Shown in pieces: positions 2,970 to 40,610 of a DNA stretch of 64,000 nucleotides. The stretch is from positions 1 through 64,000 of the forward strand of contig NZ_JAAIYO010000006.1 of the NCBI RefSeq assembly GCF_014930455.1, read 5' to 3'. Source of the stretch: Corallococcus soli (GTDB lineage: Bacteria; Myxococcota; Myxococcia; Myxococcales; Myxococcaceae). Numbering within the stretch: the first letter of the stretch is position 1; every line of letters begins with the position of its first letter. The position numbers were made by a program, and so were the translations under genes. A model generated the notes under the pieces. That model ran no database searches, was not told the origin of the DNA, and saw only the letters and a list, made by a program, of their open reading frames with translations.

Positions 2970-3515
2970 ATGAAGCGAGCCGGCTGGGGAGTCGTGTTGG
3001 GATTGAGCTGTGCGCTGTTGGGAACGGCCTGCGAGCCCGAGGGGAGCGAGCAGGAGCCGCAGGGCACCGAAGCCGTGGAGATGCGCATCTCCCTGAGCGG
3101 GGATGCGTGCGGCGTCGTGTCCGCGCAAGCGCATGTGTGGGGCAACGACTTCCCCCCCATTGGACCGGTGGCCCTGTATGTCGGGAACGGCTACATCGAG
3201 GGCGGGGTGAGCAATGTCCCCACGGGGCTCGACCGGAGGGTGGGCGTGACGGCCTACAACGCGGTGGGGAGGGCTGTGTACGCCGGCTCCGCGTCCGTGA
3301 ACGTCTACGACGGGCCGGTGTCGCCGGTGCAGATCACCCTGATGCGCATCCCGGAGAACTGCCCGGGCTCCAGCACCGGGAGCATCCACATCATCGGCGT
3401 GCTGGAGGGCAGGACCGGTTCGGACGGAGGCTCCGCCTACGACGCGGGTCCGGGCCCTTCGTACGACGCGGGTCCGGGTCCTTCGTTCGACGCGGGCTAC
3501 GGCCCCCGTCCGTAG
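2970..3515 (+). CDS. putative lipoprotein with DAGPGPS-repeat tail
   Basis: A 181-residue protein. The ATG at 2970 is chosen because GGAGGGA lies just upstream and the product then starts with a lipoprotein signal (MKRAGWGVVLGLSCALLGTAC, lipobox LGTAC). The body (about 30-150) contains several short beta-rich stretches (VALYVGNGYIEGG, RRVGVTAYNAVGRAVYAGS) and two Cys. The C-terminus is low-complexity: an eight-residue unit of the type YDAGPGPS occurs three times and ends in FDAGYGPRP. Such Asp/Gly/Pro tails are common in myxobacterial surface proteins, but the function is unknown. The gene ends 18 nt past the stop of the convergent oxygenase gene, so the two 3' ends overlap. Confidence 0.75.
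   Translation: MKRAGWGVVLGLSCALLGTACEPEGSEQEPQGTEAVEMRISLSGDACGVVSAQAHVWGNDFPPIGPVALYVGNGYIEGGVSNVPTGLDRRVGVTAYNAVGRAVYAGSASVNVYDGPVSPVQITLMRIPENCPGSSTGSIHIIGVLEGRTGSDGGSAYDAGPGPSYDAGPGPSFDAGYGPRP
3438..3500 (+). repeat. coding tandem repeat, YDAGPGPS-type unit
   Basis: Three tandem copies of a 24-27 bp unit encoding (Y/F)DAGPGPS, followed by a degenerate fourth (FDAGYGP), at the 3' end of the lipoprotein gene. The DNA copies are nearly identical (tacgacgcgggtccggg), so slippage could vary the copy number. Confidence 0.7.
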
Positions 3516-4099
3516 AACCACGCGGTGAGGGCCAGGCGCCGCGCGTGCGAGGGCAGCACCTCGTGCTCCAGCCTCTCGCTCAGGAACACCACCAGCCGGT
3601 CCAGCACGGGCGCCACGTCCAGCGGCGCGCCGGTGTCCTCCGGGTGGAGGCGGAGCATGCCGCCGTCCGCGGGCGTCCAGCCGGCGTTGGCGTACCAGAT
3701 GGCGGTGAGGCGCCGGTTGGACTGGCCCGGGAACGCATCCCGGTGGCGGGCGTAGTGCGCGCCGCCGCCGGGGTAGCAGGCAAGCTGCACGTCGAAGCGG
3801 CCCAGGCCCAGGTACGCGCTGGAGGACACCGCTTCGCCCAGCGCGCGGAAGTGGTCCCACAGCGCTTCCAGCGCAGCGTCCGCGCCGGGCAGCACCCATT
3901 CGATGTGGTCTCCGCGCACGGAGGTGTCGAGCGCGTGGTCCCCGCCGCGCCGGATGCCCGCGGGCCGGAGCGTCCCTGCGTGCACGCGAGCCAGCGCGGC
4001 GTCCCGCACCGCGAGGGCGCGGGTCTCACCCAGGAAGGCGTCGCGCACGAAGTAGCCGTGCAAGCCCAGCGCCTCCACCTCCGCGTCCGTCAGGACCAC
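3497..4099 (-). CDS. 2-oxoglutarate/Fe(II)-dependent oxygenase, prolyl 4-hydroxylase type
   Basis: A 200-residue protein of the Fe(II)/2OG dioxygenase fold. The HxD pair is in HYARHRDAF, the distal His and the 2OG-binding Arg are in LEHEVLPSHARR, and the C-terminal strand is LALTAWFYG. Such enzymes hydroxylate proteins or small molecules using oxygen and 2-oxoglutarate. The GTG start at 4099 is preferred because GGGAGG lies 5 nt upstream. An ATG at 4201 also fits the frame, but its complement shares a CATG with the ATG of the divergent gene, leaving no promoter space. The 3' end overlaps the convergent lipoprotein gene by about 18 nt. The substrate cannot be predicted. Confidence 0.82.
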   Translation of the reverse strand: MVLTDAEVEALGLHGYFVRDAFLGETRALAVRDAALARVHAGTLRPAGIRRGGDHALDTSVRGDHIEWVLPGADAALEALWDHFRALGEAVSSSAYLGLGRFDVQLACYPGGGAHYARHRDAFPGQSNRRLTAIWYANAGWTPADGGMLRLHPEDTGAPLDVAPVLDRLVVFLSERLEHEVLPSHARRLALTAWFYGRGP

Positions 4100-16755: not shown

Positions 16756-16790
16756 GTCGCTGACTCCTCGTGATGAGAAAGATGTGGGGA

Positions 16791-17450
16791 CTACGCCGGC
16801 TGCGCGTCGGGCTGCCGGTCCGGCTGCGCCGCCTGGAAGGCGGGAAGTTCGTTGCACGCCGCTTCAATGCGCAGCAGCGTGGGGTACGGCGTCAGGTCTA
16901 CACCCAAGCGGCGGGCCCCGTAGAGCTGGGGCACGAGCAGGATGTCCGCGAACGACACCGCGTCCCCCACACAATAACGCCCCACCGTGGCCTGCACCGC
17001 TGTCTCCAGGGCCGTCAGCCCGTGCGCGTTCCAGTGCGCGCCCCAGGCCTTCTCGTCCCCCTTCAACACGTCCCTGACGCGCAGCACCACCGACGTGTTC
17101 TGCAAGGGCTGGATGCCGGCATTCACCATCTCCGCCAGCATCCGCGTCCGCGCCCGGAGGTACGCCTCCGAGGGCAGCAGGGCAGGCGAGCCCCCGCGCT
17201 CCTCCAGGTACTCCAGGATGGCCATGGACTCCGACAGCCGGCGCTCCTGGCCGCCGTCGTCCGTCCACTCCAGCGTGGGCACGCGCCCCATCGGGTTGAC
17301 GGCCCGGTAGGCGGGCTGGTGCTGCTGGCCGCCGTCCTTCACCAGGTGCACCGGCAGGGACTCGAAGGGGATGCCCTTGAGGTTCAGCGCGATCCGCACG
17401 CGCCAGGACGCGGACGAGCGCCAGTAGCCGTGGAGGCGCACCTGCTTCAT
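16791..17450 (-). CDS. maiA: maleylacetoacetate isomerase (zeta-class glutathione transferase)
   Basis: A 219-residue glutathione-transferase fold protein. The N-terminal thioredoxin domain starts with LHGYWRSSASWRVRIALNLKGIPFE and has the cis-Pro segment MGRVPTLEW and the glutathione-binding LSESMAILEYLEE. The helical C-terminal domain contains YCVGDAVSFADILLVPQLY. It isomerises maleylacetoacetate to fumarylacetoacetate using glutathione. The active-site motif, usually SSCSWRVR, reads SSASWRVR, so the conserved Cys is Ala. Its ATG overlaps the stop of the fumarylacetoacetase gene by 4 nt, giving tight coupling. The C-terminus is Gln/Pro/Asp-rich. Confidence 0.92.
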   Translation of the reverse strand: MKQVRLHGYWRSSASWRVRIALNLKGIPFESLPVHLVKDGGQQHQPAYRAVNPMGRVPTLEWTDDGGQERRLSESMAILEYLEERGGSPALLPSEAYLRARTRMLAEMVNAGIQPLQNTSVVLRVRDVLKGDEKAWGAHWNAHGLTALETAVQATVGRYCVGDAVSFADILLVPQLYGARRLGVDLTPYPTLLRIEAACNELPAFQAAQPDRQPDAQPA

Positions 17451-18427
17451 GGGACCTTCACCACCGTCTGGGCGATGCGGCCGAAGGGGCTGTGGCCCTC
17501 GCCGTCCAGCATCTCGATTTCGATGGTGTCCCCCGGCTTCATGAAGGACGTCTTCGGCTTGCCCTCGTCGATGGTCTCAATCATCCGGCGCTCGGCGAGG
17601 CAGGAGATGCCCCGCGCGCGGTCCTCGTTGGACACCGTGCCGCTGCCCAGCACCGTGCCCGCCGTGAAGGCGCGCGTGCGCGTCAGGTGCTGGATGAGGT
17701 CCAGGAAGGAGAAGTGCATCTCCGGGCCCGCGTCGGTGTCGCCCACCAGCTCGCCGTTGAGCAGGCTGCGCATGCGCAGGTGCACCCGGCCGTCCCGCCA
17801 CGCGGAGCCCAGCTCGTCCGGCGTCAGCGCGAAGGGGCCGAACGCGGTGGCGGGCTTGCTCTGGAAGAAGCCGAAGCCCTTGGCCAGTTCCTCCGGGATG
17901 AGGTTCCGCAGGGACACGTCGTTGGCGATCATCACCAGCTTGATGTACTTGCCCGCGTCCTGGGCCAGCGTGCCCATGGGCGTGTCACCCAGCACGACGC
18001 AGACCTCGCTCTCGAAGTCCAGGCCCCAGGCCTCGTCGCGCAGGGGGATGTCCTGCGTGGGCGCCAGGAAGTCGCCGGAGCCCCCCTGGTAGACCAGCGG
18101 ATCCGAGCGCAGCGTGGCGGGCGGCTCCGCGTTGCGCGCCTTGCGCACCAGCAGGACGTGGTTGATGTACGCGCTGCCGTCCACCCATTCATAGGCGCGG
18201 GGCAGCGGCGCGTGCAGCGCCTTCACGTCCAGCGGGCGGCTCTGCACCGCGTCCGCTTCCAGTTGCTGGGCCAGGGCGCGCAGCTGCGGCTCGCGCGCGT
18301 CCCAGTCATCCAGTGCCGCCTGCAGCGTCAAGGCCACGTTGGTGGCCAGGGCATAGGCGGAGTTGTCCCGCTTGACGACGATGAGCCGCCCATCGCGGGT
18401 TCCGTCCTTGAGCGTCGCGAGCTTCAA
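17447..18427 (-). CDS. fahA: fumarylacetoacetate hydrolase
   Basis: A 326-residue fumarylacetoacetase-type hydrolase that cleaves fumarylacetoacetate to fumarate and acetoacetate, the last step of tyrosine breakdown. The metal-binding carboxylates are in DFESEVCVVLG, and other conserved parts are YINHVLLVRKARNAE, MIANDVSLRNLIPEELAKGFGFFQSKPATAFGPF and the closing GSGTVSNEDRA. The TTG start at 18427 is chosen because GGGAG lies 7 nt upstream and the protein then begins LKLATLKDGTRDG, the usual start of the family. The frame is open to 18481, where an ATG has no ribosome-binding site. First gene of the fahA-maiA-hppD operon. Confidence 0.92.
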   Translation of the reverse strand: MKLATLKDGTRDGRLIVVKRDNSAYALATNVALTLQAALDDWDAREPQLRALAQQLEADAVQSRPLDVKALHAPLPRAYEWVDGSAYINHVLLVRKARNAEPPATLRSDPLVYQGGSGDFLAPTQDIPLRDEAWGLDFESEVCVVLGDTPMGTLAQDAGKYIKLVMIANDVSLRNLIPEELAKGFGFFQSKPATAFGPFALTPDELGSAWRDGRVHLRMRSLLNGELVGDTDAGPEMHFSFLDLIQHLTRTRAFTAGTVLGSGTVSNEDRARGISCLAERRMIETIDEGKPKTSFMKPGDTIEIEMLDGEGHSPFGRIAQTVVKVP

Positions 18428-29938: not shown

Positions 29939-31342
<1,404 letters not shown>

Positions 31343-31459
31343 GGCTCCAGGCGTATTGCACGCACCCCGGCGTGACAAGTGGCGCGGTGCGTCCAGGGTC
31401 GGCCGGCGTCGCGAGCGCGTGGCCCTCCCCGCCCCGGGGGTGGGACGGGGTGCCGGCAA

Positions 31460-31472
31460 CCGACAGTGTCGG
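31460..31472. promoter_or_regulatory. palindrome CCGACA-G-TGTCGG
   Basis: A perfect 6-bp dyad with 1-nt centre in the 231-bp region between the divergent oxidase and secreted-protein genes. It is the size of a dimeric repressor half-site pair; candidate operator. Confidence 0.4.
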
Positions 31473-31473
31473 C

Positions 31474-31492
31474 TCCGGACCGTGTGTTCGGA
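31474..31492. promoter_or_regulatory. imperfect dyad TCCGGAC / GTTCGGA
   Basis: Arms match at 6 of 7 positions with a 5-nt spacer, directly beside the palindrome at 31460-31472. The two together could bind a regulator cooperatively. Confidence 0.3.
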
Positions 31493-31522
31493 AGCCAAGA
31501 ATCCAGGCTGGGCCCGTATACG

Positions 31523-31537
31523 ACGCGACGGTCGCGT
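31523..31537. promoter_or_regulatory. palindrome ACGCGAC-G-GTCGCGT
   Basis: A perfect 7-bp dyad with 1-nt centre, 37 nt upstream of the ATG at 31574 and just after GTATAC. The position suits a repressor site over the promoter of the small secreted-protein gene. Confidence 0.45.
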
Positions 31538-31573
31538 TCCGGCCGTGCCCCCGTCCCTTCCAGGAGTCTCCCG

Positions 31574-31924
31574 ATGAAGCCGCTCAGCACCCTCGCCCTG
31601 CTGGCCTCCCTGACGCTCGCCCCTGGCGCCCTGGCCGCCGCGGAGACCCCGCCCTCGCAGGTGCCCCAGGTCTTCGCGACGGTGGATGACTATGCCGTCA
31701 TCAACCCCAGCACCGTGGAGGTCACCGGCATCCTCCAGGGGGAGACGCTGCCCCGGGTCTTCCGCTTCATCTACAACACCAGCGTGAACGCGGACTCCAG
31801 CCAGCACCTGTCGCGCTGTGACCGGCTGGCGCTGCTCGCGATGAACCGACCCGGACGCTACGTGTTCGAGATGACCCAGGGCGGCGGCTCCCAGCCGACC
31901 CGCTGCCGGCTGACGCGCCAGTAA
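31574..31924 (+). CDS. small secreted protein, unknown function
   Basis: A 116-residue protein starting at the ATG of MKPLSTLALLASLTLAPGALAAAE, a clear signal peptide with cleavage near ALA-AAE. CAGGAG is 8-10 nt upstream. The mature about 92 residues show mixed strands (VDDYAVINPSTVEVTGILQGETLPRVFRFIYNTSV), two Cys (SRCDRL, TRCRL) that may pair, and no known domain. It is followed after 15 nt by the repeat lipoprotein gene, so both are likely co-transcribed from the promoter region with palindromes. Confidence 0.75.
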   Translation: MKPLSTLALLASLTLAPGALAAAETPPSQVPQVFATVDDYAVINPSTVEVTGILQGETLPRVFRFIYNTSVNADSSQHLSRCDRLALLAMNRPGRYVFEMTQGGGSQPTRCRLTRQ

Positions 31925-31939
31925 CCCCGGACGCCCTCC

Positions 31940-33763
31940 ATGGACCTCCTGGCGAGAACGACGTGGGCGCTGGTGTGCGTGGCCCTGGGCTTCCAGCTCG
32001 GCTGCGGTGGGCGGGAGCCGGAGCCCCCGTTCCCCACGCCCGTGGATGCGGACGGCGACGGCCGTGCGGTGAACCTGGACTGTGATGACCACGACCCCGC
32101 CGTGTGGCGGGCCGTGCGGGGCTACGAGGACCTGGACGGGGACGGACACGGGGACCTGGAGCGCCCGGTCACCTGCGTGGGTGACGGCAGCGAGGGCTGG
32201 ACGGAGCAACAGGGCGACTGCGCGCCCCAGGACGCTACCCGGTGGCGGTGGCCCGCACAGGCTGTCTACCCGGACCAGGATGGAGATGGGGCCACGGGGC
32301 CCGGCCCGGTATGGCTGTGCGTGGGAGACTCGCTCCAGGGCTATCTCGAACAGGCAGGGGACCCCGACTGCGACGACCAGGACCCGCGGAGCTGGCACTC
32401 CGAGCTGGCCTGGGTGGACTCGGATGGCGACGGCGTGGGCGAAGGCACGCCCATCCGGTGGTGCACCGGGCAGGGCCGCACGCCCCCCGCAAGTCATGTG
32501 CTCGTGTCCGGGGACTGCGCGCCCGGGGACGCGCGCCGCTGGCGCATGCTGCCCTACGCCTACCGGGACGAGGACCAGGACGGCTTCACGGTGCCCCAGG
32601 CGGGAACGGTGTGCGCCGGGACGGCCCTGCCCCCGGGCCATGCCACCCACAGCATCCAGACCGACTGTGATGACCGGAACCGGAACCGCACCGTGCCCAT
32701 CGAGCGCTGGGCCGACACGGATGGCGACGGCGTGGGCGAAGGGGACCCCATCCTGCGCTGCATCAGCCCCGGGGAATCGATTCCAGGCGAGGTCTTCCAG
32801 GGAGGCGACTGCGGGCCCGGGGACGGGACGCGCTGGCAGTACCTGGCCTTCGCGTCCCGCGACGTCGACTTCGACGGCTACCTGGCGCCGGCGTCAGGCC
32901 TGCGGTGCAGTGGCTTCTGGCTGCCTTCTGGCTTCTCCGCGTCGGTCGTGAACGACGACTGCGACGACCGGGACGTGACACGCTTCCGCACCTGGAGCGT
33001 CCACGCGGACTCGGACCGGGACGGCGTGGGCGCGGGTCCAGCGACCGCCATCTGTGGCGGGGCGCAGGTGCCCACCGGCTACGCGACGACGGACACCGAC
33101 TGCGCGGCGGCGGATGCGGCGCGGTGGCGGATGCTGGCGTATGCGTTCCGCGATGCCGACGGCGACACCTTCACCGTGGAGCAGGCCGGGGAGTTGTGCG
33201 CGGGCGTGTCCCTGCCGGCGGGCCATGCCACCTACGCGATGTCCGGCCCGGACTGCGATGACTCGAATGCCTCCCGCTACCAGAGCGTGTCCGCCTTCAC
33301 GGACACGGACGGGGACGGCGTGGGCGCGGGGACGGCCACGGCCCTGTGCACCAACGGGCAGGTGCCGCCCCCCTGGTCCTCGCTGGGCACGGACTGCGCC
33401 GCGGAGGATGCGACGCGGTGGAGGGACCTCACGGCCTCCCTCGCGGACCAGGACGGAGACGGCTTCACCGCGCCGATTCCCGCGACGCTCGTGTGCACCG
33501 GGGCGGCCCTGCCGGCGCCCTACCACGCGAAGGCCGTGGGCAATGACTGCGACGACGCGGACCCGGACCTCTACCGGTGGATGGTGCTCTATCCGGACCG
33601 GGACGGGGACGGCGTGGGCGCGCCGCCCCGGCAGGTGAGCTGCATCGGACAGGCGATCCCCGGCGGCCTGTCCGTCTACGGGGACGACACCGACGACCAG
33701 GATCCGGTGCGCCAGGAGGATCCGGACGAGGCCGACGAGGTGGGCCTCATCCTGGACCTGTGA
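31940..33763 (+). CDS. repeat-rich acidic lipoprotein, MopE/metal-binding-repeat type
   Basis: A 607-residue lipoprotein (lipobox LGFQLGC, Cys near 22). From residue 47 it is built of 11 tandem units of about 46-51 residues and a degenerate twelfth. Each unit starts with DC followed by acidic residues (DCDD or DCAP/DCAA), continues with an Asp-rich loop such as DxDGDGxG, and has a second Cys about 35-40 residues on. From the second unit two unit types largely alternate: DCDD units with TDGDGVG loops and DCAP-type units with an RWRM/RWRD core and FTVP. The Asp loops look like calcium sites and the family style is that of MopE-type putative metal-binding repeats. Surface calcium-binding structural role is inferred. 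Confidence 0.82.
   Translation: MDLLARTTWALVCVALGFQLGCGGREPEPPFPTPVDADGDGRAVNLDCDDHDPAVWRAVRGYEDLDGDGHGDLERPVTCVGDGSEGWTEQQGDCAPQDATRWRWPAQAVYPDQDGDGATGPGPVWLCVGDSLQGYLEQAGDPDCDDQDPRSWHSELAWVDSDGDGVGEGTPIRWCTGQGRTPPASHVLVSGDCAPGDARRWRMLPYAYRDEDQDGFTVPQAGTVCAGTALPPGHATHSIQTDCDDRNRNRTVPIERWADTDGDGVGEGDPILRCISPGESIPGEVFQGGDCGPGDGTRWQYLAFASRDVDFDGYLAPASGLRCSGFWLPSGFSASVVNDDCDDRDVTRFRTWSVHADSDRDGVGAGPATAICGGAQVPTGYATTDTDCAAADAARWRMLAYAFRDADGDTFTVEQAGELCAGVSLPAGHATYAMSGPDCDDSNASRYQSVSAFTDTDGDGVGAGTATALCTNGQVPPPWSSLGTDCAAEDATRWRDLTASLADQDGDGFTAPIPATLVCTGAALPAPYHAKAVGNDCDDADPDLYRWMVLYPDRDGDGVGAPPRQVSCIGQAIPGGLSVYGDDTDDQDPVRQEDPDEADEVGLILDL
32078..33681 (+). repeat. eleven tandem coding repeats of about 145 bp
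   Basis: Eleven units inside the lipoprotein gene, about 48.6 residues on average. Recurrent DNA words include gacggcgtgggcg and actgcg. Even and odd units form two families that alternate over most of the array, suggesting that a two-unit block was duplicated. Confidence 0.75.
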
Positions 33764-33776
33764 GGGCTGGGGCGAG

Positions 33777-34646
33777 CTACCCCTGGATGAAGGCCAGCAG
33801 GTCGTTGTTGATGACGTCCTTGTTGACCGAACACATGCCGTGGCTGAAGCCCGGGTAGACCTTCAGCATCGCGCTCTTGATCAGCGTCGCCGTCAGCCGC
33901 CCCCCACCGTCGAAGGGGACGATCTGATCATCGTCCCCGTGCATCACCAGGGTGGGCACGTCGAAGCGCTTCAGGTCCTCGCGGAAGTCGGTCTCGGAGA
34001 AAGCCTGGATGCAGTCGTACTCGGCCTTCAGGGCGCCCATCAGGCCCTGGAGCCGGAAGCTCTCCCGGAGCCCTTCGGACACCTGCGCGCCGGGCCGGTT
34101 GAAGCCGTAGAACGCCAGGCTCAGCTCCATGAAGAAGCTGGAGCGATCCTTCTTCACCCCGGCGCGGATGCCATCGAAGACCTCGATGGGCAGGCCATGG
34201 GGGTGCCAGTCCGTCTTGAGCATGATGGGCGGGACGGCGCTGATGAGCACCGCCCTGGCCACGCGCGAAGTCCCATGCCGCCCGATGTAGCGCGCCACCT
34301 CGCCGCCGCCCGTCGAATGACCGACATGGATGGCCTTGCGCAGGTCCAGCGCGCCCGTCAGCGCGGCGAGGTCGTCCGCGTAGGTGTCCATGTCGTGGCC
34401 GCCCCAGGGCTGGGACGAACGCCCGTGGCCCCGGCGGTCATGCGCGATGGTGCGGTAGCCACGCTCGGACAGGAACAGCATCTGGTCCTCGAAGGCATCC
34501 GCCGTCAGGGGCCAGCCGTGGGAGAAGACGACGGGCTGGCCCTCCCGGGGGCCCCAGTCCTTGAAGTAGAGCTGGGTGCCATCCCGGGTGGTGACGTAGC
34601 TGCCCGAAAGCTTCCCGACGTGCGCACTGCCGGACTGGGTGTCCAT
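33777..34646 (-). CDS. alpha/beta hydrolase, non-haem chloroperoxidase-like
   Basis: A 289-residue alpha/beta hydrolase of the cofactor-free haloperoxidase/esterase group. The nucleophile elbow is GHSTGGG (Ser near 105), the acid lies in [11 protein letters not shown] (about 235) and the His in YPGFSHGM (about 264). The oxyanion segment [15 protein letters not shown] and [14 protein letters not shown] are typical of this group. It probably hydrolyses small esters and may make peracids in vitro; the natural substrate is unknown. The ATG at 34646 has AGGAG upstream. It is convergent with the repeat lipoprotein gene and a hairpin separates it from the gene upstream. Confidence 0.88.
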
Positions 34647-34814: not shown

Positions 34815-37601
34815 TCACGGGTGGCTGGCCGGGTTCGCCGGGTTCGTCCCCGCCGCCCGTTCGTCCCCGTCGAAGAACCCATCCAGGTCCCGGTCGATGC
34901 CGGCGCGCATCCCCGAGCCCGGAGGCGTGCAGGTGTACGTCAAGAGACCCTGGTTCGTGGCGACGGCCGAGCGGAGCGACGCCGCGGGCACCAGCGGCAG
35001 CGCGGCGCGGTCCGTCTTGAACAGCCCGCCGCCCACGTAGAGGAAGCCCATCTCGTAGGTGCCGGCGCGGCCCTTGGCGATGAGGTCGCACTCCCCCGCG
35101 TTCGCGCGCGCCACCAGCAGGTCGATGCGCGGCCCGGCCACCGTGGCGTTGGTGGCGGTGAGCGTCACCTGCTGTCCGACGATGGGCGCCAGGTTGGTTT
35201 CGAAGGCGAACATGTACTGCTCCATGTCCTTCTTGGCCTGGAAGCCCGCGGGCGTGTCCGGGATGCCCACCGCGTTGAAGACGGGGTGGAAGTCGAAGCC
35301 GCTGTTGAAGAGGAACAGCGTGGGGATGGCGCCGTCGCTGTTGAAGCCAATGCCACGCACCTGGTCCCCGAGGAACGGATCCGTGGGCGTGTTGCCGAAG
35401 GGGAAGCCCGCGCCGAACATGCCGACCTTCTGGTACATGTTGCGCAGGTGCGGGACCTTGGGGAACAGCGGCTCCGCGTCGAAGGAGCTCTTCCCGTCCG
35501 TGCCGAAGAAGCCCTTGAAGGGGCCCTCACCCGGGTTCGCGTTGACGTCCACGCGATGGCAGGACTCGCAGGAGCCGGGGAAGAAGCTGGTGGTGTTGAC
35601 GAAGAAGTCCCGGCCCGCCTGCTGTGACGGCGTGAGGGAGTTGTCCAGGTTGCGGATGGGGTTGGGCGGGTAGACGACCTGGAGGATGAAGTCGGAGAAC
35701 TTCTGCATCTCCACGGGCGTGAGCTGGGCGCTGCGGCCGAGCAGGTCCATGAAGGCCGGGTTGAACTGCTTGAAGGCCTCCACCTCGTTGAAGGCGCCGC
35801 CGTTGGGCTGGACGCTGGGCCCGGTGCTGCCGCCGGTGCGGTCCCCGCGCCAGTGCATGGGCCCCTGGTTCGCCATGCCGCGCAGGCTCTGGGTGGACAG
35901 CGGGCCCTTCATTGGGTGGAAGGCCGTGTCCTGGCCGAACGTCGGGTCGGGGCCGAACTCCGGCAGCACCGGGACGATGGGGTTGTAGTTGGCCGTCACG
36001 CTGCCGTCCGGATTGCCCAGGTCCCAGGTGATGCTGTCGAAGTCACCGAAGATGTGGCAGCTGCCGCAGGACGAGTCGCCGTGGCTGGAGCTGGTGCGCG
36101 CGTTGTAGAGGAACGGGCGGCCCTGGACCACGCTCGGCGGCTCCGGGTTGAACATGGGCAGGTGGGCCACCTCCGTCTTCGTGGTGGTGTTGACGACGGA
36201 GATGGCGTTGTCGAAGCGGGTCAGCACGTAGAGGCGGTTGCGCGCCTCGTCCAGCACGAGGCCGGTGGGGCCGCCGCCGCTCAATTCAATCTGGTTCGCG
36301 GTGCCAGGCACGAAGGTGCCGGCCTCCAGCGCGGAGGTGGCGTACACGCCCAGCTTCGACGAACCGAACGCGGCGACATAGAGCGTGGCGCCGTCGGACG
36401 TCACCGACATGCCCGTGGGCTGCGCGAGGCTCTTCTCGCTCTCCGTGTTGGGCGTGGCCGCGCAGCAGGCGGCGTAGTTGATGTGCGAGTTGAGGTGGCG
36501 GGGCACGACGCTCCCGCCGCTGCCCAGCACGGTGATGCGGCTCTCGTGCAGGTGGCCGCGCAGGGTGCTGCCCAGCAGGGTGCCGGGACCTTCGAAGCGC
36601 AGGTCGTTCCGGGCCTCGGTGTTGCTGACGTAGACCTTCCCACTCACCGGGTTGACGGCCATGTTGAACAGGATGGTGCCCACGCCCGCGTAGGCGCCCG
36701 CCGCGCCCGCGACCTGCACGGGCGGGTTGGCGGTGGCGGAGATGGCGAACACGTCCTTGTCCGGCAGGGACAGGCGCACGTAGGACGTCCACGGGCGGTT
36801 GAGCACGTCCACCCAGTCCGCGCCGTTGTACTTCACGATGACGGAGACCTCCGGCGCGGGCAGGCCCTGGTGGTTGACGTTGGGGCCGGGCACGCCGCCC
36901 GCGGACTCGCCGCCGTTGGGCACCAGGCTCTCGTGGATGACGGTGGTGCGGTTGCCGGAGTGGAAGGCCGCCGCGTACACGCGCGAGCCGTCCGGCGTGG
37001 CCGCGAGCGCGCGCGGCGTGTCCCCGAACAGGGTGATGCGGGTGAGCGGCGTGCCGCCCAGCGTCGCGCCCAGGTTGTCCGAGTCGAACACCCAGACGTC
37101 CGCCCGGCCGACACCCGGCGTGGTGAGCCGCGGGTCGAACCCGGTGTTCTGGCCCCGGTGCGCGGCGGTGATGAAGGCGCGCTTCTTCCCGGTGCCCGCG
37201 AAGACGATGTCGCGCGGCTCATCCCCCACGAGCAGCGTCCGCGTCACGACGCCCCCGTGCCCGCCCGCGTCCACGCGCACGATGCTCACGCTGTCGGACA
37301 GGTGGTTGACGACCCAGACCTCGTCATTGGTGCGGGCGGCGACGGCGACCGGCTCCAGGCCCACGGGCACGGAGCCCCGGTGCGTCAGGCCGCTGGTGCC
37401 CACCTGGAAGATCTCCAGCCGGTTGTCGGGCGTGTTGACGGCGAAGAGCCACTGGCCGTTGGGGGACAGGGCCAGGGGGCGGACCTGGCCGCTCTCGAAG
37501 ACGGTGAAGTGCTGCGCGGACGCGGTGAAGCTCAACAGCAGCAGCGCGGCGGACACGGCTCGCGCCATGCCACGGCGCGCGGCCGGAGGTCTGGGGTTCA
37601 T
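34815..37601 (-). CDS. secreted YVTN-type beta-propeller / dihaem cytochrome c protein
   Basis: A 928-residue exported protein. A signal peptide (residues 1-30, AVSAALLLLSFTASAQ) precedes a region of about 460 residues built of propeller blades (VRPLALSPNGQWLFAVNTPDNRLEIF, GLEPVAVAARTNDEVWVVNHLSDSVSIVRV, GPTGLVLDEARNRLYVLTRFDNAISVVNT). The C-terminal part holds two CxxCH haem-binding sites, CGSCH at about 510-514 and CESCH at about 680-684. The 170-residue spacing matches the dihaem peroxidase/MauG fold. The end has a calcium-loop-like DRDLDGFFDGDE. A periplasmic or surface oxidoreductase is likely; the partner is unknown. The ATG at 37601 follows AGAGAG. Confidence 0.85.
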   Translation of the reverse strand: MNPRPPAARRGMARAVSAALLLLSFTASAQHFTVFESGQVRPLALSPNGQWLFAVNTPDNRLEIFQVGTSGLTHRGSVPVGLEPVAVAARTNDEVWVVNHLSDSVSIVRVDAGGHGGVVTRTLLVGDEPRDIVFAGTGKKRAFITAAHRGQNTGFDPRLTTPGVGRADVWVFDSDNLGATLGGTPLTRITLFGDTPRALAATPDGSRVYAAAFHSGNRTTVIHESLVPNGGESAGGVPGPNVNHQGLPAPEVSVIVKYNGADWVDVLNRPWTSYVRLSLPDKDVFAISATANPPVQVAGAAGAYAGVGTILFNMAVNPVSGKVYVSNTEARNDLRFEGPGTLLGSTLRGHLHESRITVLGSGGSVVPRHLNSHINYAACCAATPNTESEKSLAQPTGMSVTSDGATLYVAAFGSSKLGVYATSALEAGTFVPGTANQIELSGGGPTGLVLDEARNRLYVLTRFDNAISVVNTTTKTEVAHLPMFNPEPPSVVQGRPFLYNARTSSSHGDSSCGSCHIFGDFDSITWDLGNPDGSVTANYNPIVPVLPEFGPDPTFGQDTAFHPMKGPLSTQSLRGMANQGPMHWRGDRTGGSTGPSVQPNGGAFNEVEAFKQFNPAFMDLLGRSAQLTPVEMQKFSDFILQVVYPPNPIRNLDNSLTPSQQAGRDFFVNTTSFFPGSCESCHRVDVNANPGEGPFKGFFGTDGKSSFDAEPLFPKVPHLRNMYQKVGMFGAGFPFGNTPTDPFLGDQVRGIGFNSDGAIPTLFLFNSGFDFHPVFNAVGIPDTPAGFQAKKDMEQYMFAFETNLAPIVGQQVTLTATNATVAGPRIDLLVARANAGECDLIAKGRAGTYEMGFLYVGGGLFKTDRAALPLVPAASLRSAVATNQGLLTYTCTPPGSGMRAGIDRDLDGFFDGDERAAGTNPANPASHP

Positions 37602-37686
37602 GATGTCTCTCTGGGAAGGGGGAGGGAGGCCCCACTTCAACTGTAGTGGACGCGTCTTGAGCAGGGGAACGGGTGGTCCTGGACCC

Positions 37687-37747: not shown

Positions 37748-39022
37748 TCACTTCCGGGGCCAATCGCGGAGCAGCGCTTCGACGTCAGCCTGCTGGGTCC
37801 AGTCCAGCCGGCCCCGCAGCGCGCTCTTGCCGCACTCGATGAGGACCGACCTCCACTTGGAAGCCGACGTCTGCGGGACATGGTGTGTTCGCCGCGCCTC
37901 CCAGAACGTGCCCCCGGTCGCGTTCACCACGCGCGCCACGCAGGCGTCGAACTCCTCCTGGGGCAACCAGCGCAGGGACTCCAGGACCCCGTCCGCGTCG
38001 AAGCCCTCCAGCGAGGAGTCCTTGCCGGTGATGGCCTGGAGGGACCTCTGGCCCTGATGCTCGGGGATGAAGGACACGCCCCCGGGGCGCAGCACGCAGT
38101 GCCCCCTGAGCCATTCCTCGTCGGGTCCCTGGAGCGACGCGGGGAGGATGGCCACCTGCTTCAGGCGCACCCCGCTCCGCGCGGCGCCGCGGAGGGGCGG
38201 CTGGCGGTGCAACTCCAGGAGCGAGGCCACTTCAAAGGCATCCAACACCGCCCGCGCATGCAGCCGCCGGTCCCCCGTCACGCGCAGGTCCAGGGTGAAG
38301 GGGTCCACGGTGATGCCGCCGTCGGGGATGGTGCCCAGCCGCACCGCCTGGGGCTCACCGATGGCCGGAATCCAGAGCAGCCGCTCACTGGTGATGCGCA
38401 CCCGGCCGGAGCCCAGCAGGGGCCGCGCCAGCCACCACAGCGGCCTCAGCGTGCCCCCCATGAGGGTCGCCATGAACGAGGGGCCCCGCGAGCTGCCCCG
38501 CTCGGGATGGGGGATGAATCCCTGCATGAGGCGCCGGCCCGGATGCCAGCGGGAATCGGCTTCGAAGACGAGCACCTCGCCCGGGTTCAGCGCCTGGCTC
38601 ACGGGCTGACGCACCAGCGCATCCAGCCGCGTCAGCGCCTCTTCGAGCGGAAGGTCCGCGGGCGCCACGGCCAGCGCCTCCAGCCGACGCCGCGCGAGCC
38701 CGGGGAGCCGCTCACGCAGCTCCGACAGCTTCCGGGCCTGCCGCAGCACGGGCAGGGAGCCGCTCCAGGACTCCGAGGCCGCGCGGTGCTGGACGCGCTC
38801 CAGCGCCTCCTTCAACGCCTCCGTCCGGGAGACCAGCGTGGGCACCAGCTCCGGCCGCTTCAGCAGTCTCCGCCGCCAGCCGGACCCGGACAGCACGCGC
38901 TCCAGCTCCGCATGAAGGGGCAGCGCCTCGGCGATGAGCTCCGCGCGCCCTTCGAGCTGGCGCTCGGCGTCGGACGCCATGAGGACATCAGGCGCGGTGG
39001 AGGACCGGGGGCGCTGGGACAT
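37748..39022 (-). CDS. cytoplasmic protein of unknown function
   Basis: A 424-residue protein I do not recognise. The first about 150 residues are helical, Glu/Arg/Leu-rich (AERQLEGRAELIAEALPLHAELERVL), possibly coiled coil. The rest contains alternating hydrophobic stretches (SGRVRITSERLLWIPAIG, GITVDPFTLDLRVTGDRRLHARA, GVSFIPEHQGQRSLQAITG) resembling PH-like or GRAM-like beta domains that occur twice; this is only a suggestion. No signal or membrane segment except a mildly hydrophobic patch (LRPLWWLARPLLG). The ATG at 39022 is preferred. The next gene on the same strand ends 65 nt upstream, so it may belong to the unit with the two genes at 39088-40610. Confidence 0.7.
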   Translation of the reverse strand: MSQRPRSSTAPDVLMASDAERQLEGRAELIAEALPLHAELERVLSGSGWRRRLLKRPELVPTLVSRTEALKEALERVQHRAASESWSGSLPVLRQARKLSELRERLPGLARRRLEALAVAPADLPLEEALTRLDALVRQPVSQALNPGEVLVFEADSRWHPGRRLMQGFIPHPERGSSRGPSFMATLMGGTLRPLWWLARPLLGSGRVRITSERLLWIPAIGEPQAVRLGTIPDGGITVDPFTLDLRVTGDRRLHARAVLDAFEVASLLELHRQPPLRGAARSGVRLKQVAILPASLQGPDEEWLRGHCVLRPGGVSFIPEHQGQRSLQAITGKDSSLEGFDADGVLESLRWLPQEEFDACVARVVNATGGTFWEARRTHHVPQTSASKWRSVLIECGKSALRGRLDWTQQADVEALLRDWPRK

Positions 39023-39087
39023 GGCGCCGCGAAGCTTAACGCCCCGGGGCCATGGACGGAGGCAGCGCGCCCGAGCGCTCCCGCGCC

Positions 39088-39933
39088 CTAATCGCCCGGC
39101 GTCTCCAACTCCAGACGTGCGCACTGGCGCAGCACCTCTTGTGCGTCGGTGGACCCGGCGCCAGGGGGTGGAGCGACTTCGAGCCAGGGCACGGGAGGTT
39201 GGGTGGGCGTGCCTTCGGACTCCTGGAGGAGCGTGAGCAGCTCCCGCGCGGGATCCCTTTGAAGCAGGGGCACGGCCTGCGCCGGAGATCGCGCGGCAGA
39301 CACCTGCCCTGGAGCAGCGGGCGCCAGCACGGGCGGCTCGTGGTGCATCTGTCCAGGAGCAGCGTACGCCGGCACGGGGTGCTCCGTCACGTCCGGGAGG
39401 GGAATCGCCGCGGCCTGGAGCAGGGCCGCAGGGTCTGGGCGCAGGGACACCGTGGCGACGGGCTCCGCGGGCAGGATGTCATCCGGGTCGAAGCCGAAGG
39501 GCACACCGGGCGGCGGCCTGGGAGGCGTGCCCCGCTCGGGCTCCAGGTCGAAGGGCGAAGGCCCCTCCGGCATGGGCACGCACCTCAACGCGTTCGGGCG
39601 CGGCGTGGGCGCGCCGGAGTCCAATGGCTCCGGGGAGACCTCCGACGACACCGGAGTCATCCGGGGCGTGACGCTGGAAGGCTCCAGACGCGGAGGCCAC
39701 AGCGGCACCGGCAACAGCACCACCTCCGGCTCGCGCACGGGCAGCGAGCGCACCCGCGCGCCGCCCCTCGGCGCCGTGGCCTCCGCGAGCGCCGCCGCAT
39801 GTTCGGCCAGCACCCGCTCCGCCCAGCCCTTCACCCACCGCGCCAGGGCCAGCACCCACGCCAGGTGGCACCGCGCCCGGAGCGGCGGCCCGCCCTGCAC
39901 GGCCCTGACGGGAGGGACGGCCCCGCGCGTCAC
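39088..39933 (-). CDS. proline-rich protein, translationally coupled to the Pvc16-like gene
   Basis: A 281-residue protein of unknown function. The GTG start at 39933 overlaps the TGA of the upstream gene (GTGA) and has GGAGG 6 nt upstream, the classic arrangement for coupling. Residues 1-60 form a helix-rich basic segment (CHLAWVLALARWVKGWAERVLAEHAAALAEATAP). The remainder is Pro/Ala/Glu-rich and probably disordered (PEPLDSGAPTPRPNALRCVP, PRPPPGVPFGFDPDD). The C-terminus again looks structured (ARELLTLLQESEG). Because of the coupling it is probably a partner or scaffold for the upstream protein. A longer reading upstream to 40131 would overlap that gene and is not supported. Confidence 0.7.
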   Translation of the reverse strand: MTRGAVPPVRAVQGGPPLRARCHLAWVLALARWVKGWAERVLAEHAAALAEATAPRGGARVRSLPVREPEVVLLPVPLWPPRLEPSSVTPRMTPVSSEVSPEPLDSGAPTPRPNALRCVPMPEGPSPFDLEPERGTPPRPPPGVPFGFDPDDILPAEPVATVSLRPDPAALLQAAAIPLPDVTEHPVPAYAAPGQMHHEPPVLAPAAPGQVSAARSPAQAVPLLQRDPARELLTLLQESEGTPTQPPVPWLEVAPPPGAGSTDAQEVLRQCARLELETPGD

Positions 39934-40610
39934 CCGTCCTCCTTCACGGGCATCCGGATGATCAACGGCGCGGTGCCGGAGGCGAGCACCTCCGACTCCA
40001 CCGCCAGCATCTCGCCCTCGGCCCGCACCTCCAGGCGGCCCAGCGACCGCGCGGGCGGCACACGGGGGAACTGGAAGTGGCCCTGCGCATCCGTGCGCGT
40101 GCTCAGTTGCAGGGACGGCAGCGCCACCCACGCGCCCCGGATGGGCACGTCACCGGGCCCCACCACCTGGCCCAGCAGCGCGGACGGCGAGGGAGCGCGG
40201 CCCACCAATGACAGACATCGCGCCTCCGCCGGGGGCTGATCCTTGCGCACCTGCACCCGCAGGCGGAAGGCGGGGCGCGGCACCGAACGGAGCCCCGCCC
40301 AGAGCGCGGCTGGCACCGGGCTCAGGTCCACTTCAATCTCCTTGTCGCTCATGGCCGCGAAGACCAGGTCGCCCAGCAGCCGGTGCGCGCGCTCCGGCGT
40401 GTCCGCGCCCACCGTCACCAGATAGCAGACGGTGAACTGCAGGACGCCCCGCTTGCCCGGGCGCGCCATGGGCGCCGGCCCCAGCTCCAGCAGGTAAAGA
40501 CAGACGCCCCGCTCCAGGGAGTCCCGGTCCGGTACGCCCAGGTACACCGGCGCATCCGTGGCGACACGTCCTACCCACGCCCTCATGCGTTGATCGACTT
40601 CGTCGATCAT
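39930..40610 (-). CDS. Pvc16/DUF4255-like protein with carboxypeptidase-regulatory-like domain
   Basis: A 226-residue protein. Residues 1-130 (MIDEVDQRMRAWV, CLYLLELGPAPM, VCYLVTVGADTPERAHRLLGDLVFAAM, EVDLSPVPAALWAGLRSVPRPAFRLRV) resemble the DUF4255/Pvc16 N-terminal family, tube-capping proteins of contractile injection systems. I assign this from pattern memory, so it is tentative. Residues 140-226 form a small beta domain of the carboxypeptidase-regulatory type (LLGQVVGPGDVPIRGAWVALP, TRTDAQGHFQFPRVPPARSL). No other injection-system genes (sheath, tube, baseplate) occur in the window. A perfect 8-bp inverted repeat covers its first codons. The ATG at 40610 is preferred. Confidence 0.62.
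   Translation of the reverse strand: MIDEVDQRMRAWVGRVATDAPVYLGVPDRDSLERGVCLYLLELGPAPMARPGKRGVLQFTVCYLVTVGADTPERAHRLLGDLVFAAMSDKEIEVDLSPVPAALWAGLRSVPRPAFRLRVQVRKDQPPAEARCLSLVGRAPSPSALLGQVVGPGDVPIRGAWVALPSLQLSTRTDAQGHFQFPRVPPARSLGRLEVRAEGEMLAVESEVLASGTAPLIIRMPVKEDG

Follow-up and report, generated by a model that had tools for sequence, protein, structure and literature searches.

A variant acidic calcium-loop repeat array and its fast-evolving upstream partner form a two-gene module in Corallococcus soli and its relatives

The window, by which is meant the whole 64,000-nucleotide stretch of Corallococcus soli DNA that was analysed (bases 1-64000 of contig 6 of a 9.4 Mb host genome), contains a two-gene module, one half of which is a protein composed of acidic two-cysteine units in tandem and the other half a small protein encoded directly upstream. 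The array is a variant of the known acidic calcium-loop repeats, and the protein to which it is joined is unnamed and evolves fast. The original prediction described the array protein and missed this partner. The two genes are inherited together, which would imply that they probably make up one cell-envelope device, and the reading tentatively favoured here is that of a calcium- and disulphide-stapled rod with a variable binding partner which binds a changing external partner. No description of the pair was found among the matches listed in a mainly open-access literature. Two unnamed protein families from predatory, social bacteria are thereby brought under one identity, with a role that can be tested.

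Of the 16 genomes of the genus, the same 11 have the array and the partner. Across the class, the array profile matches 61 of 147 genomes at E <= 1e-10, with 46 matches at E <= 1.2e-91 and the remaining 15 only at E >= 7.3e-31; the cut-off for the 46 'strong' matches was set after this gap had been seen. The partner profile matches all 46 strong-array genomes and none of the other 101, absences that fall short of proof since the genome searches scored part of the first-look candidates (in the own genome, for example, 31 out of 88 and 9 out of 57), and across a phylum sample of 195 genomes the same 46 match. The genes are also neighbours, as the partner lies on the same strand as the array in 46 of 47 cases with 122-258 nt between its stop codon and the first unit, the exception (G117) having the gene for a 544-aa DDE transposase in between. 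In the window the partner stop codon is located 15 bp ahead of the array start, which is an operon-like spacing. One genome (G023) carries a further tandem partner copy at 520 nt, and another (G088) has a second partner copy (L125:3412-3789, minus strand) in an 8-kb stretch with no recognisable array.

The surroundings of the pair are less constant. It adjoins a FAD-oxidase gene in 10 of the 11 own-genus genomes, and in the eleventh, C. llansteffanensis (G015; L003 and L033), it stands without the usual FAD-oxidase and hydrolase neighbours. Six Myxococcus loci have the upstream side alone in common with the window, and two further loci (L041 and L043) have none of the tested flanking genes in common with it. 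Five own-genus genomes lack the pair; in four of them the genes for the FAD oxidase and the hydrolase are directly adjacent and form a clean empty site, and the fifth (G013) has no match to either flank. A gene nearby in the window (34815-37640, minus strand) encodes a protein of 941 aa that matches a lactonase-type propeller and, weakly and at its C-terminus, a bacterial TSP3 repeat (E 0.00087, below the cut-off). This distribution bears on the least probable of the explanations considered, in which the array is no more than MopE/TSP3-type calcium modules in a new layout and the upstream gene is tied to it by transcript sharing alone. The 15 bp spacing and the similarity of the modules to those of MopE-associated proteins would agree with such an arrangement, but both genes are present or absent together over the 147 genomes, and the pair is kept together in different neighbourhoods and missing together from the sister genomes.

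The array gene (Table 1) had been described as encoding an eleven-unit lipoprotein with acidic repeats, and this description holds. The units are 46-51 residues long, each has a DC start, a DxDxD loop and a second cysteine, and their DC starts are located at residues 47, 93, 143, 192, 242, 290, 340, 387, 438, 485 and 536. In the unit alignment D1, C2, D19, D21, D23 and C34 are invariant across the 11 units. A profile search of the own genome recovers all 11 units, with the next match at E 0.0015 (150 of 571 candidates scored). The C-terminal cap DTDD (residues 583-586) corresponds to a DC start in which the cysteine is replaced, and a tail like ..GLILDL follows in many, but not all, of the 47 arrays. 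The protein is probably a lipoprotein that is lipid-anchored at Cys22, as judged from its signal segment. Over the 47 arrays a strict lipobox, defined by a PROSITE-like pattern and sought in a stretch of at most 110 residues ahead of unit 1, is found in 18, the [AGS]C kind in 26 more and neither in 3. A promoter and terminator scan of 31300-34000 found none, such a scan being uninformative in a genome of this kind.

Table 1. Features of the two-gene module, with positions in the window
Feature	Positions	Strand	Remarks and basis
Block with both genes, absent from four sister genomes	31380..33777		blastn breakpoints, L131-L134
Partner gene, 116-aa protein	31574..31924	+	alignment of 14, AF2, co-occurrence in 46 genomes
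Array gene	31940..33763	+	607-aa probable lipoprotein, 11 two-Cys acidic units
Signal segment ending FQLG-C22, near-canonical lipobox	31940..32005	+	[AGS]C kind, outside the strict pattern
N-terminal cap, Cys-free DADGDG loop ahead of unit 1	32045..32062	+	D36, D38, D40 invariant (14 sequences)
Unit 1, type A by position	32078..32215	+	unit alignment, even/odd split
Unit 2, type B	32216..32365	+	unit alignment, even/odd split
Unit 3, type A	32366..32512	+	unit alignment, even/odd split
Unit 4, type B	32513..32662	+	unit alignment, even/odd split
Unit 5, type A	32663..32806	+	unit alignment, even/odd split
Unit 6, type B	32807..32956	+	unit alignment, even/odd split
Unit 7, type A	32957..33097	+	unit alignment, even/odd split
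Unit 8, type B; 62% identity to unit 4	33098..33250	+	unit alignment, even/odd split
Unit 9, type A	33251..33391	+	unit alignment, even/odd split
Unit 10, type B	33392..33544	+	unit alignment, even/odd split
Unit 11, type A	33545..33685	+	unit alignment, even/odd split
C-terminal cap DTDDQDP and acidic-hydrophobic tail ..GLILDL	33686..33760	+	tails Cys-free in 47/47 arrays

The units of the array protein fall into two types, as originally proposed, and alternate completely. Odd units start with DCDD and have 46-49 residues, even units start with DC[AG][PA] and have 50-51, and of the 462 possible splits of the 11 units into five and six, the even/odd split ranks first by within-minus-between similarity, with an identity of 43% within types versus 35% between them. 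The alternation had been placed from the second unit onwards; the split test has it begin at unit 1, units 1 and 2 both being untypical. These tests used 23 distinct proteins out of 52 loci, and in 20 of the 22 other proteins the same split ranks first or second, the exceptions being L014 (rank 8 of 252) and L016 (rank 230 of 252), in which the alternation slips. Counted from the last unit over the 47 arrays, 227 of the 270 A positions have a DCDD start, as against 21 of the 230 B positions, so that the alternation is strong but imperfect across the relatives. The consensus sequences are DCDD.da........y.D.DgDGvGag.....C.g...p.G.s for type A (270 units) and DCap.DatrWr.l.y.hrD.DgDG.Tvp..g..C.G..LP.gY for type B (230 units). 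Units 4 and 8 score higher against each other than against the same-place units of M. xanthus, a closeness which may reflect gene conversion.

The skeleton of the unit is constant throughout the relatives. The arrays read from the 46 strong-match genomes, 47 in number with two in G071, hold 500 units; in the reading, a leading DC string was dropped if it stood over 70 residues ahead of the following one. Every one of the 500 units has exactly two cysteines, the second of which is located 31-36 residues past the first, in support of the claim of a second cysteine in each unit. Since the units were located by DC and a loosely acidic motif, their first cysteine is given by construction; a unit without it would, however, appear at double length, and the unit lengths over the 47 arrays are 46-53, with zero merged double-length units. 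The strict DxDxD motif, a looser form of which was partly used to locate the units, is likewise present in 500 of 500. The residue after the third loop aspartate is most often glycine, in 93% of the A units and 89% of the B units, and the units conform to the linear motif Dx[DN]xDG of calcium loops.

The Cys-free caps enclose eleven first cysteines and as many second ones. Pairing within units would use all of them, whereas pairing across unit borders would leave one at each end, which favours a closed module; one disulphide inside each unit, which formed part of the original prediction, is by this parity argument indirectly supported. An intra-repeat, disulphide-dependent calcium site was reportedly described by Dai in 2017 (cited in PMC12045341) for the TSP3 repeats of an OmpA. 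Loops of the Dx[DN]xDG kind bind calcium in many contexts including strand-loop-strand arrangements (PMC3123361). AF2, run with a 14-sequence alignment, models the array with a mean pLDDT of 81.4 and a pTM of 0.38. The expected repeated module does appear in the model, as a beta-hairpin in which two strands of at least 3 residues flank the acidic loop is predicted in 10 of the 11 units (units 2-11), with only short strand pieces in unit 1, and the pLDDT in blocks of ten residues is 78-95 over units 3-10. With a pTM of 0.38 the model predicts the modules, and neither a rod nor the mutual arrangement of the units. Foldseek returned 24 matches to the whole array model at E <= 10, the best at 0.97 and none at E <= 0.001, and VIA gave Z >= 2 for 0 of 174 chains aligned to it; for a 607-residue model with such a pTM this lack of fold matches is no proof of a new fold. 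At the sequence level, a PDB search with the array protein gave a best E of 0.2 for a chance match to green fluorescent protein, and the array profile has no match among solved structures at E <= 1.

The array looks old and nearly fixed in length. Eleven units are found in 38 of the 47 arrays, ten in 7, nine in 1 and three in 1. When the units of the window protein are compared with those of ten other own-genus proteins, the best match has the same position in 109 of 110 cases, so that no recent array growth is visible and the order of the units is old within the genus. Against six Myxococcus proteins the same-place match holds for units 2 and 6-11 and is unreliable for units 1, 3, 4 and 5, and against six proteins from other genera same-place matching mostly fails. 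It was suggested that the array grew by duplication of two units at a time. Array lengths of 3, 9 and 11 would fit such steps but the seven ten-unit arrays do not, which leaves this weakly supported, and given the age of the unit order such growth could only be ancient. The three-unit array belongs to G071, whose second pair consists of an A-B-A array (L127:2833-3585, minus strand) and a partner at about 3456-3780 (minus strand) followed by a YkuD L,D-transpeptidase gene. It offers a natural small version for structural work. Array remnants without a partner match are found in G095 (L128:2452-3173, minus strand), where the remnant is spread over several reading frames, and in G097 (L129:2700-3362, minus strand), where a subtilase gene follows; a similar ORF is present in L128.

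The relation of the units to known modules is indirect. The array protein has no Pfam and no NCBIfam family at E <= 1, and neither TSP3 nor PF11617 matches any of the 14 aligned proteins, the window protein among them, which upholds the view that the layout is unlike plain thrombospondin type 3 or MopE repeats. PF11617 is present in all five distant relatives scanned, in 5-16 stretches each. With Z set to 1000, all 14 distant proteins are matched by the unit profile at E <= 1.5e-5, with no reversed protein at E <= 10 and a best E of 2.6 among 280 shuffles, although these proteins were originally found with the array protein itself and the control therefore excludes mere composition only. An hhalign comparison of pattern-picked modules gave a probability of 97.8, biased by that picking. 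By its sequence the unit looks like the loop module that lies between PF11617 motifs, keeping just the DCDD start of the motif. A 1592-aa ORF with 16 PF11617 stretches and FG-GAP repeats was noted at L049:5098-9873 (plus strand) in a record of a Klebsiella pneumoniae MAG, a bin name which seems doubtful. A phage origin was rejected, as tblastn against 50,697 phage records gave nothing at E <= 1e-5 and the best PHROGs match has an E of 0.15, and so was membership of a known anti-phage defence, with no PADLOC family at E <= 1 for array or partner.

The partner starts with what appears by eye to be a signal-like segment, so that its export may be supposed. Cys82 and Cys111 are its two invariant cysteines and Met90 is also invariant (14 sequences). 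No fitting Pfam, NCBIfam, PADLOC or PHROG family was found for it, and the best E of its profile against the PDB is 0.95. AF2 predicts a beta3-alpha-beta2 order with a pLDDT of 76.5 and a pTM of 0.64, to be compared with the OB fold, a five-stranded barrel in which a helix stands between strands 3 and 4. The best Foldseek match to this model is weak (E 0.059), and the best VIA matches are CipA (Z 5.8) and SilF (Z 5.6), followed mostly by toxin B subunits and OB-fold domains, with some PH domains; a Z of 5.6 is, by the tool's own note, within the range of unrelated folds. Many of these best matches are OB-fold domains, and the model suggests, without proving it, an OB-like fold for the partner. 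The match to SilF and the invariant Cys82, Met90 and Cys111 could also point to metal acquisition or storage, in which the array, secreted or at the surface, would bind copper or some other metal in the manner of MopE and the partner would be a metal chaperone of the SilF/CusF type. In the same vein, the array units match modules of distant proteins of which all five scanned carry PF11617 'Cu-binding_MopE' motifs. Such a function is nevertheless improbable. The SilF score is one that unrelated folds attain, no copper gene is present among the scanned neighbours of the pair, and the array and its 14 aligned proteins lack PF11617, even if this motif covers just a small part of MopE/CorA (PMC6189053). 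Moreover, the copper ligands of CorA and MopE are two histidines and a kynurenine (PMC3912023), whereas the array alignment (14 proteins) has no invariant or nearly invariant histidine column, so that a MopE-type copper site is not to be expected in the array.

The evolutionary rates are counting estimates, which can be inflated by relaxed constraint, by misalignment of gappy loops or by codon bias, so that they suggest but do not prove positive selection on the partner. The mean pN/pS over pairs of up to six own-genus loci is 1.02 for the partner and 0.63 for the array (15 pairs each). The neighbouring genes have means of 0.13 for the FAD oxidase (15 pairs) and 0.21, 0.31 and 0.27 for the dehydrogenase, the hydrolase and the propeller protein (10 pairs each). 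Against two complete genomes the partner reaches 1.22 and 1.11, which ranks it first of 38 and first of 43 genes, the gene medians being 0.32 and 0.33. The comparison kept ORFs by third-position GC, a filter that left out the array; valued separately, it has 0.54 and 0.59, which is high but not exceptional against the other genes. Within the array (11 own-genus sequences) the cysteine codons have a pN of 0.000 and the loop aspartates a pN/pS of 0.04, with 0.68-0.84 for the other classes. In the partner 28 of 90 codons are without amino-acid change (11 sequences), and change is highest, by hand-averaged pN, in the loop that joins strands 1 and 2 (L12, 0.67), the one from strand 3 to the helix (L3-alpha, 0.51) and the one that joins strands 4 and 5 (L45, 0.59), with 0.23 in L23 and 0.00 in L-alpha4; the start of the helix and several positions in strands are as variable as those three loops. 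In 23 Myxococcus-type sequences the pN/pS of the partner is 0.78. Three other genes of the window, at 37748-39124 (minus strand), 39052-40239 (plus strand) and 16770-18092 (plus strand), have values of 0.73-0.93 between own-genus species, and no Pfam family reaches E <= 0.001 for the first two.

These rates bear on a possible and only somewhat less likely explanation than the favoured one, by which the pair is a structural part of the envelope, either a spacer or a calcium-dependent coat, and the partner varies merely as it is largely unconstrained. A near-fixed number of units with constant cysteines and aspartates and other positions free to vary is what such a part could show, other genes of the window also have high pN/pS, and the change in the partner reaches its strands and helix start. 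What speaks for more than relaxed constraint is that this change peaks in three loops and is little or none in two others, that the partner ranks first in both gene comparisons and that 101 of the 147 genomes of the class have no partner match.

In the favoured reading, that of a stapled rod with a variable binding partner, the array protein would be exported, anchored by lipid at the predicted site Cys22, and fold as a row of eleven beta-hairpin modules, each closed by one disulphide from the DC start to the second cysteine. Each DxDGDG loop would bind calcium, with the following DxDD supplying further ligands; because the two unit types alternate, it is chiefly at every second junction that the DD pair is retained. 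The product would be a rod, stiff and almost constant in length, that depends on calcium and an oxidising environment. The OB-like partner would act together with the rod, to which it most likely binds, and carry a variable binding surface, and the pair would at the cell surface most likely bind a changing external partner in the form of prey, rival, phage or kin surface. A constant skeleton of two cysteines and three aspartates per unit, usually in eleven units, together with a varying partner is what one would expect of a display device, and if the binding role is true the pair would constitute a polymorphic surface recognition locus beside TraA. A more specific version, in which this is an undescribed polymorphic recognition system of Myxococcaceae and Anaeromyxobacter relatives with positively selected OB-fold loops on, or released from, the eleven-module calcium/disulphide rod, is unlikely to hold in full, if slightly less so than a role in metal binding.

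Among known systems, the array resembles the MopE-associated modules, with which it shares the string Y-x-D-x-D-G-D-G ... C ... P-x-G-Y ... D-C-D-D. It differs from them in having no 30-residue PF11617 motif, in its two alternating unit types, and in its Cys-free caps and partner gene, and a MopE-related module without the PF11617 core would provide a simple system for calcium and disulphide stiffening of beta-hairpin arrays. MopE and CorA of methanotrophs have a calcium site in common and, like the array as predicted, are secreted or surface proteins with an acidic calcium site (PMC3912023); membership of these copper proteins was rejected, as neither PF11617 nor the invariant histidines for a 2-His/kynurenine site were found. 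Thrombospondin type 3 repeats have Dx[DN]xDG loops and cysteines too, but the array units have 46-53 residues and predicted beta-hairpins, and membership was rejected for want of a TSP3 Pfam match in the array protein (E <= 1) and the 14 aligned proteins. The four-Cys arrays that other genera of this family carry (L017, L018, L020 and L022) likewise consist of tandem DC-start, acidic-loop units of about 50 residues, but have an extra cysteine pair in many units, other domains and partly DCDG-type stretches; the genomes of three of them, G016, G020 and G031 (L018, L017 and L020), were covered by the class search and do not belong to the 46 with a partner match. The TraA/TraB kin-recognition pair is comparable as a functional analogy only, since the array protein has no PA14 or MYXO-CTERM (Pfam and NCBIfam, E <= 1) and was rejected as a TraA member. 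It too is a two-gene operon with surface display, and TraA of myxobacteria has Cys-rich repeats proposed as a stalk, together with a variable domain (PMC6372800, PMC12045341). In the pair described here a small protein of its own provides the variable part, and the predicted anchor is N-terminal. If it is a recognition system, it would represent the split-gene counterpart of the TraA stalk and variable domain.
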